From NCBI GenBank assembly GCA_028277025.1, contig JAPYVG010000103.1, positions 1 through 5,708 on the forward strand: a stretch of DNA of 5,708 nucleotides, written 5' to 3'. The position numbers and the translations under genes are program-made. How positions within the stretch are numbered: position 1 is the stretch's first letter; the number at the start of each line of letters is the position of its first letter. The DNA comes from Sulfolobaceae archaeon. GTDB taxonomy: Archaea; Thermoproteota; Thermoprotei_A; Sulfolobales; Sulfolobaceae. Below the pieces are notes generated by a model, which did not search any database, was not told the DNA's origin, and saw nothing but the letters and a program-made list of their open reading frames with translations. Of the stretch, positions 1 through 4,995 are shown piece by piece.

Positions 1-101
1 GGCATATAATTAGGTCCGCCCTCGTTTATACAAACTTTTCTACGAAAAATCTTATTCTTTCGACTTTTTATGTATTTTATTCATCTCATTTTTTACGCTA
101 A

Positions 102-278
102 AAAAGAGATTCCCATACTGACGTAAAGCGGTTTGTTGGGCGTGCTTTATCCGGTATTGAGAGTGTTCAGTCCTTTTTTGAGGGGGTGAGGGTTCCTCAC
201 ATACGCCTTAAGGCTGATTATGGTGTTGAGGACATCGTTATCGAGGCGAAGTCTCCTTGTGGGCGCATTAGGGAGTAA
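102..278 (+). pseudogene. Unrecognised open stretch, probable gene remnant without a start
   Basis: This frame is open from just after a TAA at 99-101 to a TAA at 276-278 and has no ATG, GTG or TTG at a sensible 5' position. It reads as plausible protein, including FVGRALSGIESVQSFFEGVR and DYGVEDIVIEAKS. From about 120 the composition is clearly richer in G and C than the surrounding DNA, with many third positions G or T, which suggests a different origin from its neighbours. I do not recognise the family. A decayed insertion-sequence or plasmid gene is one possibility, but nothing in the sequence proves it. The 100 bases before it are AT-rich with T tracts and show no gene. Confidence 0.25.
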
Positions 279-1572: not shown

Positions 1573-1599
1573 AAAAGGTTCACTTATGTAGAACCTTTT
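1573..1599 (-). terminator. Perfect 9-bp hairpin over the PaREP1 stop codon, possible 3' end signal
   Basis: The arm aaaaggttc at 1573-1581 pairs perfectly with gaacctttt at 1591-1599 across a 9-nt loop. The hairpin includes the last codons and the TGA stop (1582-1580) of the PaREP1 gene. Read on the minus strand, the 3' arm ends in a short T run, like a weak intrinsic terminator. Crenarchaeal termination usually relies on T tracts rather than hairpins, so the function is uncertain: transcript-end stabilisation is an alternative. The hairpin itself is seen directly. Confidence 0.4.
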
Positions 1600-2056
1600 T
1601 AGCTTCATTTAACATCTTTTCAACTTTCTCTAACCCTATTTTTACATAGTCTAACGTAAGCTTTCTCTCATGAAAACCCCAGACATGAAGATCATATGCG
1701 GAATTCCAACCGTCAACGACCCAATCGCCTAACATCTTAGATAAACTCTTACTCGCCATGCTTAAAAGATATGTGTACCACCTACCTTCCCTCATAAAAG
1801 CCTGGTATTCTTGTGTGCGGAATTTTTCAGCTAAAGCCTTTACCACCTCCTCAGCTGCTTTATAAGCTTTTTCTGAAGCTTGGACTGGATCGCCCTTGTT
1901 TAAATACTCATAACTTTCTTTTAAGTAACTCTCAGCAAACTTTATTCTCTCTTCAGAGCTATAGTCTGGGTCCTCACGGCTAAGGGCTTCAAGTAACACC
2001 TCATTAACGTCAATTCCTTTTTCAGTAAGCTTTCTAATGAGTTCATCCAATTTCAC
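1580..2056 (-). CDS. PaREP1 family protein
   Basis: This is a 158-residue helical protein starting at a GTG (2056), a usual length for PaREP1 (Pfam PaREP1/PaREP8), a family expanded in Pyrobaculum and the Sulfolobales. Seen in the sequence: an N-terminal helix (residues 1-27), a segment typical of the family with AESYLKESYEYLNKGD and QASEKAYKAAEEVVKALAE (residues 41-78), and the characteristic C-terminal block W117 then LHVWGFHE (123-130), followed by a long charged helix to the end. The family is thought to be HEPN/KNTase_C-like in fold. Members are often suspected of toxin-antitoxin or stress roles, but no function is proven. A nucleotidyltransferase-like gene, the usual partner of HEPN proteins, lies further right in the window but is not adjacent. 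The gene appears intact. Confidence 0.85.
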   Translation of the reverse strand: MKLDELIRKLTEKGIDVNEVLLEALSREDPDYSSEERIKFAESYLKESYEYLNKGDPVQASEKAYKAAEEVVKALAEKFRTQEYQAFMREGRWYTYLLSMASKSLSKMLGDWVVDGWNSAYDLHVWGFHERKLTLDYVKIGLEKVEKMLNEAKKVLHK

Positions 2057-2667: not shown

Positions 2668-2683
2668 TTTATAAAAATATAAA
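2668..2683 (+). promoter_or_regulatory. Promoter (TATA box) of the ATPase-nuclease operon
   Basis: The run tttataaaaatataaa contains two overlapping TATA-like elements. The second, aaatataaa, is centred near 2679, about 29 nt before the ATG at 2708, consistent with a leaderless or very short leader. No Shine-Dalgarno precedes the ATG (the preceding bases are ttattttta). This appears to be the only promoter for the two-gene unit. Confidence 0.5.
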
Positions 2684-2707: not shown

Positions 2708-3964
2708 ATGAAGCTGATAATAAAGAACATCGGCGTGCTTAAGGATACCTCAATAGAATTAGGAGACCTTACGGTTATATTTGGTAAACCTAACTCTGGT
2801 AAATCTTACATACTGAAAAGTATTTATTCCAACCTGGCCTTCTTTGATCAAGCTAATAATGTTGACTTAGCTAGTATAGTTGGGGAGGGCCTTTACCCGG
2901 AAATTGTCTCGATTTCAGAGAAGGCGATAAATGAAGGAAAATATTATGCAACTTCCTTAAATATTACGGAAAGGTTTTTAGAAGCTCTTACAGTATTAAC
3001 AGAGAGGATTTCAAGATCTCTCCTTTCAGTTAATGAAACTGAGATAGTTTGTAAGAATTCTAATTTATTAAATAGAATAAAGGAAATCACTAAGGAAGTT
3101 TTAACGTCTTTATCTACGCCTTCAGTTACTTACACACCTTATTCACCACACTGTGTGAATAAAATAGACGTTGGGTTCTCTAAAGGTGAACTAATTTTAA
3201 GAGTTGAAGTTTCCTCAATTGGAAATAAAGAGCTATGTAAAACACTGGTTTCAAGTAACTTAATTTCAACTATAAACTCTTACATGGCTTCATATTTAGT
3301 TCCAGCAATAATGAATAAGGTTAGCATGGCAGTAGAAATTCCATCTGTGAGGTTCTTATCTTATGGGAGGTCTCTAATTTTACTTTATAGAGAGAATATA
3401 CAACCTCTGCCTTATACTAAGAGCCTAATATTCTGGATAAATAAAGGTATTGAAAGAATCAGAAGCGGTAAAGGTAGTATTAACAATTTCTGGGATTTAA
3501 GAGTGGGTGTAGAGAAAACTCTTTCAGTTAACGGCTTCGAAATTCCTTTCCTTTCCTCAAGTATGCAGGAGCTTACGGCTTTTTCCTTGGCTATTGCGGA
3601 TGGGAGGAAAAGCTTATTACTTATCGAAGAGCCAGAATCCCAATTGAGTACTGATTACCAACTTAAGATGGGGTTATTTTTATACGAGTTGTCTAAAAAG
3701 CATAAGGTTGTCGTTACTACACACAGTGAAATTATCCTCATTATATTAGCAATTCTCTCCCATTTTAAGAAGGAAAAAGAGGTTGCCGAACTATTTAACA
3801 TAGGAAAAGTTGAGAGCGAGGAAAGAAGCGTTGACGTTAAAATTTATCATGTGAGTGATGGAAAAATTGAGTTAATGGATCCTGAAAAAGTTCTGGAAAA
3901 CATTCCGGGGATAACGGATATTTACTATTCTCTTCTAAAAGTAATTGCAAAGCTAAGTGAATAA
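2708..3964 (+). CDS. SMC/OLD-like ABC-type ATPase, first gene of a candidate defence operon
   Basis: This 418-residue protein has all core motifs of the RecF/SMC/OLD group of ABC ATPases (AAA_15/AAA_21-like). The N-terminal strand MKLIIKNIGVLKD leads to Walker A GKPNSGKS (26-33). An LSSSMQELT signature follows at 282-290, then Walker B SLLLIEEPES (302-311) with E307-E308, and a switch histidine in VVVTTHSE (H339). In many OLD-like proteins the Walker B is followed by a histidine in the LHP motif; here the sequence is QLSTD. The roughly 250 residues between Walker A and the signature are mixed helix and strand, including PSVRFLSYGRSL (212-223), with no long coiled coil or zinc hook. No TOPRIM or other nuclease domain is fused to it. 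The downstream nuclease-like gene starts 2 nt after the stop, so they are probably co-transcribed. The protein is probably cytosolic and could sense nucleic-acid or protein states through ATP-driven dimerisation. A DNA repair role is the main alternative to defence. Confidence 0.85.
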   Translation: MKLIIKNIGVLKDTSIELGDLTVIFGKPNSGKSYILKSIYSNLAFFDQANNVDLASIVGEGLYPEIVSISEKAINEGKYYATSLNITERFLEALTVLTERISRSLLSVNETEIVCKNSNLLNRIKEITKEVLTSLSTPSVTYTPYSPHCVNKIDVGFSKGELILRVEVSSIGNKELCKTLVSSNLISTINSYMASYLVPAIMNKVSMAVEIPSVRFLSYGRSLILLYRENIQPLPYTKSLIFWINKGIERIRSGKGSINNFWDLRVGVEKTLSVNGFEIPFLSSSMQELTAFSLAIADGRKSLLLIEEPESQLSTDYQLKMGLFLYELSKKHKVVVTTHSEIILIILAILSHFKKEKEVAELFNIGKVESEERSVDVKIYHVSDGKIELMDPEKVLENIPGITDIYYSLLKVIAKLSE

Positions 3965-3966
3965 CC

Positions 3967-4374
3967 TTGAGGACTGTCAAGGTATGTGAAAACGACTGTT
4001 GTTTTTCTACCGAATGTTCGCTACTAATAGATATGGAAAGTGAAAAATTCAAAAGCAGTGGTAAGCATGCAGATTTCCTTTGCTTTAAGGATAATAAGAT
4101 AATATTAATCGAACTAAAGGACATTAAGAGCTTTAACGACCCGAAGGAAATAGGAAATACGATAAAGGAGAAAATAAATCAAAGTCCGGTCTCAAAAAAT
4201 CATATAGAAGATATTTATAAGAAAATAAAGGACATTTATTGCAATGGGCCTATGACGTATCACTTTTACATAGTTGTGCCTAAAGAGGTTAAAAGTGTAT
4301 TAATCCACGTTATACGCTTTAACTGGAGAAAGAAGTTTGACGATGTTGAAATCTTTAGCTGTACAGATAAATGA
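3967..4374 (+). CDS. Small putative PD-(D/E)XK nuclease, second gene of the operon
   Basis: The TTG at 3967, 2 nt after the ATPase stop, is the only plausible start: the frame is closed by TGA at 3958-3960, and the next ATG is codon 23. The 135-residue protein shows the compact core of PD-(D/E)XK nucleases: GKHADFLCF with D36 on one strand, then KIILIELKD with E49-x-K51 on the next, after a short turn. E16 or E24 could supply the upstream acid. Helix IGNTIKEKINQ follows, then a strand HFYIVVPKEV (99-108) of the kind that usually continues the fold. Unusually, four cysteines cluster at the N-terminus (C7, C11, C12, C17), with more at 39, 92 and 132. The translational linkage implies it works with the ATPase, probably as the DNA- or RNA-cutting effector. 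The fold is read from motifs only; a catalytically inactive or unrelated alpha/beta protein is possible. Confidence 0.6.
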   Translation: MRTVKVCENDCCFSTECSLLIDMESEKFKSSGKHADFLCFKDNKIILIELKDIKSFNDPKEIGNTIKEKINQSPVSKNHIEDIYKKIKDIYCNGPMTYHFYIVVPKEVKSVLIHVIRFNWRKKFDDVEIFSCTDK

Positions 4375-4788
4375 AAAGTCGTCTCCTTTATCTTTGCCTA
4401 AAATCGCCTTAACTTCGTACCTATTTCTTGGGAAAATCCCCCTAGAGATTAAATAATAATAAGCCAGCGATATTCCGTTCTTTCCTTCTCTACATAGCTT
4501 ATCTACAAGTTCTTTTGCCCTATATATTGCCTCTTCGATTATCTCGTTCATATTATCAATTTTAATTGCGTTAATAACGTGTTCTCCGTTAATTAGGACG
4601 TTAACGTAAAACGGGTCTTCTTTTAAAAGCCTTATGAAAGTACTGTAGTCTACTACGTGTAAATCAAGGCTTTCGTTAATTATAACTAGTTCCCTTAAAG
4701 CTTTAAACGCCTCCTTAATATCGTCTACGACGATTAGGATATCTTCATCGCGTTCCTTACTGCCGAACTTCGTTATTAGCCTTATCAT
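4300..4788 (-). CDS. Divergent minimal-nucleotidyltransferase-like protein
   Basis: The ATG at 4788 is preceded in frame by a stop at 4803-4801, so no longer form exists. The 162-residue protein begins with KFGSKERDEDILIVVDD. This matches the G-S then D-x-D-[IL]-x-[IV]-V core of minimal nucleotidyltransferases (MNT, Pol-beta superfamily), with G9-S10 and D14-x-D16. The DLHVVD segment at 42-47 could supply the third metal-binding acid (D42). The loop between GS and DxD is three residues instead of the usual nine or so, so activity is doubtful. Residues 55-75 (DPFYVNVLINGEHVI) fit the usual MNT end, where many members have the pattern E-G-x-x-[LIV]-[YI]. The C-terminal half is helical (80-118), then less clear. 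MNT proteins often pair with HEPN toxins as antitoxins, but no such partner adjoins it here. It is convergent with the nuclease gene and shares its last 75 bp. Confidence 0.5.
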   Translation of the reverse strand: MIRLITKFGSKERDEDILIVVDDIKEAFKALRELVIINESLDLHVVDYSTFIRLLKEDPFYVNVLINGEHVINAIKIDNMNEIIEEAIYRAKELVDKLCREGKNGISLAYYYLISRGIFPRNRYEVKAILGKDKGDDFSFICTAKDFNIVKLLSPVKAYNVD

Positions 4789-4812
4789 ATGAGGAAAAAA
4801 TTAGAAAACTAG

Positions 4813-4819
4813 ATATATA
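4813..4819 (-). promoter_or_regulatory. TATA box of the nucleotidyltransferase-like gene
   Basis: On the minus strand a clean tatatat, within acgtatatatct, is centred 28 nt upstream of the ATG at 4788. This is the expected position for a leaderless Sulfolobales promoter. No Shine-Dalgarno is seen near the start. Confidence 0.55.
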
Positions 4820-4866
4820 CGTATTTCTATTTTCTTTCTTCTCCTACCTAATTCTTAAATTAAACT

Positions 4867-4995
4867 GATAGTGTCGTCACTTGCTTATTTATATTTCTAT
4901 AATTTTTAGACTTTATATAATATTCGAATTTATTGTTAATTCTTTATATATAGAATCAACGTTTAATAAATTTATACCCTAATGACGACACTATC
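4867..4995. repeat. 129-bp AT-rich segment bounded by perfect 13-bp inverted repeats
   Basis: The left arm gatagtgtcgtca (4867-4879) is the exact reverse complement of tgacgacactatc (4983-4995). The arms are the only G+C-containing part; the 103 bases between them are extremely AT-rich and hold several TATA-like runs on both strands but no intact gene. The size and perfect termini resemble the short non-autonomous elements (MITEs) known in Sulfolobus, but I see no target-site duplication (left flank taaact, right flank tccaca). Alternatives are a pair of operator sites or a large stem-loop. The whole 4789-5134 gap has no intact gene. It holds the nucleotidyltransferase promoter, this repeat and a decayed frame overlapping its right arm. 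Confidence 0.5.

Follow-up and report, generated by a model that had tools for sequence, protein, structure and literature searches.

An ABC/OLD-type ATPase gene paired with a small PD-(D/E)XK-like gene in Sulfolobales, and a convergent nucleotidyltransferase-like gene at its end

Described relatives and the ATPase gene

In WonAB, an OLD-type ABC ATPase is combined with a small PD-(D/E)xK nuclease, and phage defence requires both genes; the available portion of the describing paper also likens the system to PD-T4-4 and to operons joining an OLD-ABC ATPase to a novel REase (PMC12137116). According to the same accessible text, WonAB acts by abortive infection. The part of PMC10952713 at hand lists PD-T4-4 as having a PD-(D/E)XK nuclease domain. 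Several Hma-embedded candidates show antiviral activity according to the available part of PMC12988326, which does not name HEC-02, the two-gene PADLOC candidate of that kind; no paper describing HEC-02 was found in the open literature searched.

We compared these systems with a stretch of 5,708 nt from a Sulfolobaceae archaeon, the whole of which is called the window below. The features considered are as follows.

2708..3964, + strand: gene A, ABC/OLD-type ATPase, 418 aa, ATG start (Pfam, PADLOC, residue alignment)
3967..4374, + strand: gene B, small PD-(D/E)XK-like putative nuclease, 135 aa, TTG start
4300..4788, - strand: gene C, nucleotidyltransferase-like protein, 162 aa, convergent to B
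4300..4374, no strand: antisense overlap of the 3' ends of B and C, 75 nt (ORF coordinates)
2668..2680, + strand: TATA-like stretch 28-40 nt before A (by eye from sequence)
1580..2056, - strand: PaREP1-family gene, HEPN-T clade (Pfam PF05942, 1.2e-37)

Gene B starts 2 nt downstream of the end of A, and the coordinates confirm the placement of both reading frames in the first-pass annotation. The TATA-like stretch at 2668-2680 would be consistent with an archaeal promoter; a scan for sigma-70 promoters is little informative here, the host being an archaeon. Rfam and tRNA scans of the window found none. The nearest named relatives of its proteins are in Metallosphaera; no plasmid or phage matched the window at the DNA level, and no viral contig matched A or the alignment A1.

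The product of A was expected to be an ATPase with intact motifs, and this is borne out. Pfam finds AAA_15 (1.1e-13) and AAA_21 (1.2e-8), both exceeding their cut-offs, and gives no TOPRIM match in A. Residues G26, G31, K32, R221, E288, E307-E308-P309 and H339 are common to the window protein and 14 relatives; we take G26, G31 and K32 to be Walker A, E288 to mark the signature region and E307-E308-P309 to be Walker B. Walker A, signature, Walker B and H-loop of an ABC ATPase are thus all present in A, judged from Pfam and the 15 sequences. Moreover, 300 dinucleotide shuffles of the window gave stop-free stretches of 146 codons at most, so chance does not account for the length of A (418 aa).

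Comparison with the described systems places the pair within a known plan. With WonAB it shares the plan of one operon with two genes, for an OLD-type ABC ATPase and for a putative small PD-(D/E)xK nuclease; however, WonAB is found mainly in Gram-negative bacteria, as far as the available text goes (PMC12137116), and the window has gene C. PD-T4-4_A is the best PADLOC match of A (5e-18), and all ten A proteins scanned match it, but no PD-T4-4_B profile matches B, and the system of the window is archaeal and includes C. HEC-02 likewise joins an ATPase to a small protein: A has a HEC-02A match of 2e-6, best over residues 2-50, HEC-02B gives the PADLOC match of B (1.7e-4), and for a bacterial pair (L007) the fits are 1.5e-29 to HEC-02A and 3.4e-4 to HEC-02B. 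On the other hand, A with its 418 aa exceeds the profiles (337-338) in length, and just 2 of 18 B proteins are matched by the HEC-02B profiles. A further PADLOC candidate, PDC-M29, is similar in that its PDC-M29B profile matches 2 of the 18 (best 1.6e-4), but the B of the window is unmatched.

The effector of PARIS is a TOPRIM protein and that of Septu an HNH nuclease. The AriA profile of PARIS aligns over residues 2-343 of A (7e-16) and the PtuA profile of Septu matches A at 2.8e-6; B, however, matches neither the AriB TOPRIM (DUF4435) nor HNH, in Pfam or PADLOC, at E up to 1. Both systems were therefore dropped, in agreement with the first-pass annotation, which had set B apart from their effectors. 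That annotation, whose interpretation is borne out in part, had also suggested a candidate undescribed defence system. Given WonAB, PD-T4-4 and the operons of an OLD-ABC ATPase with a novel REase, the two-gene plan was already known; what is new is the archaeal branch, a clade of B proteins without the lysine, and gene C. No paper on an A-B-C cassette was found in the open literature searched.

Gene B and its linkage to A

A stop-free stretch of 135 codons was reached in 6 of the 300 shuffles, so the length of B alone proves little; it is the relatives of B that make it a genuine gene. Pfam yields only a sub-threshold NERD match (0.016), sequence comparison with solved structures yields none, and PHROGs holds no match for B or C. 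The B model resembles PD-(D/E)XK nucleases weakly but repeatedly. Its top structural matches include XisH, N.BspD6I, FokI, CdiA-CT, Card1, Can2, HamA and Avs4; no Foldseek match falls below 0.001, and Z stays below 8, a range flagged as possibly reflecting a common arrangement.

The B of the window carries D36, E49 and K51, as had been claimed. All 18 B sequences share C11, E24, H34, E49 and C132 and have an acidic residue at position 36, whereas position 51 is K in 9/18, R in 3/18 and S, T or L in 6/18. In the model, residue 36 lies just before, and E49 at the end of, two successive strands. Some nuclease families have a migrated catalytic lysine, and five of the six B proteins with S, T or L at position 51 carry a lysine in the next helix. 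A Sulfolobales clade (L069-L075) has S, T or L in place of the catalytic lysine and keeps the histidine, the acidic residue and the glutamate. The cysteines C11 and C132 (window 3997-4362), invariant in the 18 relatives, perhaps form a disulphide or a metal site; C132 falls within the B/C antisense overlap at 4300-4374.

The A-B pair is a real, conserved association. Against genome contigs, A alone gave no match, and the A alignment retrieved ten loci, five of them archaeal; at all five archaeal loci a small B-like gene comes next. In Thermocladium (L002) both genes lie in broken frames: an early B profile finds nothing in that genome, and a later one matches the first half of B (5e-8). When B profiles were run on 690 archaeal genomes (398 Thermoproteota and 292 Thermoplasmatota), matches occurred in 4 and 5 genomes respectively, 11 in total, and A lies directly upstream in 8 of the 11 (7/7 strong, 1/4 weak). 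The strong matches are two in M. javensis and those of G376, G005, G788, G741 and G692; the profile already included two of them, the first M. javensis copy and that of G005, and the other five were absent from the profile that found them. Among the weak matches, that of G265 has A upstream, and those of G008, G750 and the second of G741 have no A within the roughly 3 kb covered.

The search was also conducted from the side of A, whose profile has matches in 17 of 229 genomes of the class. The neighbourhoods in eight of these (G001, G558, G243, G553, G307, G362, G547 and G172) were examined, and eight further Sulfolobales pairs were found in this way. A profile built from the 18 B sequences then retrieves 17 B genes in 15 genomes, every one adjoining A, 12 of the 17 having first been found through A. 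One G558 locus (L066) has A in broken frames and no B. The two genes also vary together: over 15 loci, the distances between A proteins correlate with those between B proteins (r=0.87, Mantel p=1e-4), a correlation to which shared host descent contributes. This test left out P0001 (context unknown), L036, which nearly duplicates L035, L071, where the start of B is missing, L073, with A split over two frames, and L002 with its broken frames. In the A tree of 15 loci, whose midpoint root serves for drawing only, the five Sulfolobales rows with S or T at position 51 of B split off, the window groups with the two M. javensis copies and G558 (support 100/99), and the Thermoplasmatota group with G376.

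Two of the five bacterial loci from the A alignment search were examined. The HEC-02-like pair of L007 has the same layout as A-B in the window, and comparison of the archaeal B with the L007 B is insignificant; in L009, A is followed by a different gene, of 308 aa. In a Clostridia locus (L008 11263-11850), the frame directly after A matches the archaeal B profile at 4.9e-7. The B family therefore reaches bacteria, and this frame together with the L007 pair indicates that the A-B plan crosses domains. ATPase and nuclease pairs have been worked out in bacteria; here they form a diverse and patchy set in Sulfolobales and Thermoplasmatota. At one G558 pair (L064 5142-6685), a second ATPase (PD-T4-4_A 1e-24) directly follows A-B, beside a 126-aa protein that looks PD-(D/E)XK-like by eye and has no Pfam match.

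Gene C and readings of the cassette

The first-pass annotation had seen no other gene in the operon. This does not hold: C, on the opposite strand at 4300-4788, overlaps the last 75 nt of B and recurs with the pair. C has no significant Pfam match, and sequence comparison with solved structures returned only pentatricopeptide proteins and aspartokinases, which were taken as chance. Its model resembles HalB and MNT antitoxins; pLDDT is below 50 from residue 145, and this unreliable tail lies inside the 4300-4374 overlap. The loop of C between GS and DxD is short and departs from the ordinary pattern, which is one difference from HalB and the MNT antitoxins; another is that no HalA channel gene, as in Hailong, stands by C in the window or in M. 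javensis, the adjoining genes being A and B. HEPN-MNT was likewise rejected as a full description of C, there being no HEPN gene in the corresponding M. javensis block; the PaREP1 (HEPN-T) gene of the window is not adjacent to C but 2.2 kb away.

In M. javensis the order is also A-B-C. The gene after B is convergent, overlaps B by 13 nt and is 41% identical to C (E 3e-33), so that C occupies an identical place in the two loci though A is only 33% identical between them. The block (L001 9598-12330, 2733 bp) contains A, B and C, and its other stop-free frames of at least 60 codons, the longest of 92, all overlap these genes. In three of five other Metallosphaera genomes searched, the flanks of the block lie 281, 374 and 468 bp apart, against 2.73 kb with the block, which indicates that the three genes came or went together; in the remaining two the flanks are rearranged.

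Taken together, we propose that A-B is an antiviral ATPase-effector pair and that in this Sulfolobales branch the unit includes C as a likely check, a reading to which we assign a probability of roughly 0.6. The defence part is based on the kinship of A with antiviral ATPases and from the patchy distribution. Gene content, the A-B linkage, the co-variation and the gain or loss of the A-B-C block in Metallosphaera are directly supported. As to mechanism, A would dimerise around ATP, serve as a sensor and keep B inactive until a virus-linked trigger appears. B, by its predicted fold a stand-alone PD-(D/E)XK-type nuclease with a site formed by E24, D36, E49 and K51, would then cut nucleic acid and so stop the infection, by analogy with WonAB. 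C, predicted to be a HalB/MntA-like nucleotidyltransferase, would most likely restrain A-B, either by nucleotidylation of A or B or through an oligonucleotide product.

A bolder version of this proposal, which we advance tentatively and consider doubtful, is a three-component archaeal immune system in which C guards the ABC-ATPase-nuclease pair. C would nucleotidylate the nuclease or the ATPase, or tether an oligonucleotide, and viral interference with this mark would free the nuclease. If true, the guard logic of Hailong or HEPN-MNT would be joined to the effector plan of WonAB and PD-T4-4. The gain or loss of C as a block with the pair suggests a new means of silencing such a nuclease, and A-B-C is open to direct testing, as three small genes with probably heat-stable products.

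The alternative that survives best is that A-B alone is complete, a plain archaeal system of the HEC-02, PD-T4-4 or WonAB kind, and that C is a gene of toxin-antitoxin type hitchhiking in the islands that carry the pair. Indeed, a C profile run over 16 of the 17 pairs besides the window, some on short contigs (G376, 4.4 kb), found C at one and none at 15; in G692, the roughly 1.5 kb covered beyond B holds no C. MNT genes also occur near other pairs: in place of C, the two remaining members of the window clade have an ordinary nucleotidyltransferase in the vicinity, with HEPN and MNT genes after the second M. javensis pair, and, upstream of the G558 pair, an MNT match at 1.7 kb and a HEPN gene at 1.2 kb. 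Among the matches listed (E to about 2e-6), PF01909 lies within 2 kb of at least 4 of 17 pairs against 0.35 expected, an enrichment that is only suggestive because the radius was chosen after the loci had been seen and toxin-antitoxin genes cluster in islands. Moreover, G554, G033 and G552 carry relics of C, and neither A nor B was detected in the 9-12 kb examined; the relic of G552 is a 187-bp stretch 88% identical to window 4655-4840, which comprises the start of C and upstream DNA.

Against this stand the identical placement of C beside such divergent A genes, the lack of any further gene in the M. javensis block, and the rarity of C. Its profile has matches in 14 of the 229 genomes of the class, and an intact C occurs in one of them, M. 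javensis, adjoining A-B. Nine matches are weak; L022, the one examined, is an ordinary neighbourhood of HEPN and nucleotidyltransferase genes, and the other eight were only rescanned by profile. Linkage between C and A is further kept in G558 despite a different gene order (C-A, not A-B-C), where 27 nt separate the end of a decayed C match from a truncated A that shares 67% identity with the second M. javensis A over 73 residues. We therefore regard a self-sufficient pair with an accidental neighbour as rather unlikely.

An addiction function, in which the module would be toxin-antitoxin-like or serve genome maintenance, would play no part in antiviral defence, and C would neutralise a constitutively harmful A-B, would agree with the likeness of the C model to HalB and MNT antitoxins and with the convergent B/C overlap; we consider it improbable, since WonAB, the closest characterised relatives in plan, is antiviral and 15 of the 16 other pairs scanned do without C. 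Equally improbable is a B that is a structural or metal-binding partner of A, with C11, H34 and C132 as a metal site or disulphide and not for catalysis: these residues are more conserved than K51 and the structural matches are weak, but E24, the acidic residue 36 and E49 occur in 18/18, the latter two just before and at the end of successive model strands, and a next-helix lysine is present in nearly all B proteins with S, T or L at 51 (five of six).

Sequences around the cassette

Outside the proposed A-B-C unit, the window holds a PaREP1 gene; PaREP1 is counted among HEPN families in the available part of PMC3710099. It was rejected as a fourth part and left out of the unit because the M. 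javensis block has no counterpart. Window 1-137 is a repeat that likely belongs to a mobile element; at least seven Sulfolobales genomes (G394, G307, G178, G362, G553, G291 and G554) carry copies 74-86% identical to it. At 382-660 lies a DUF711 gene fragment, C-terminal, which matches positions 322-398 of the 413 in the Pfam profile (3.2e-15), and similar DNA is found in other Sulfolobales. A 140-aa reading frame at 789-1211 has no Pfam match and has DNA relatives in at least ten Sulfolobales genomes. Finally, a 129-bp element at 4867-4995 is bounded by 22-nt terminal inverted repeats that are 82% complementary; since other Sulfolobales genomes, G255 and G130 among them, have similar stretches, it is probably a MITE.
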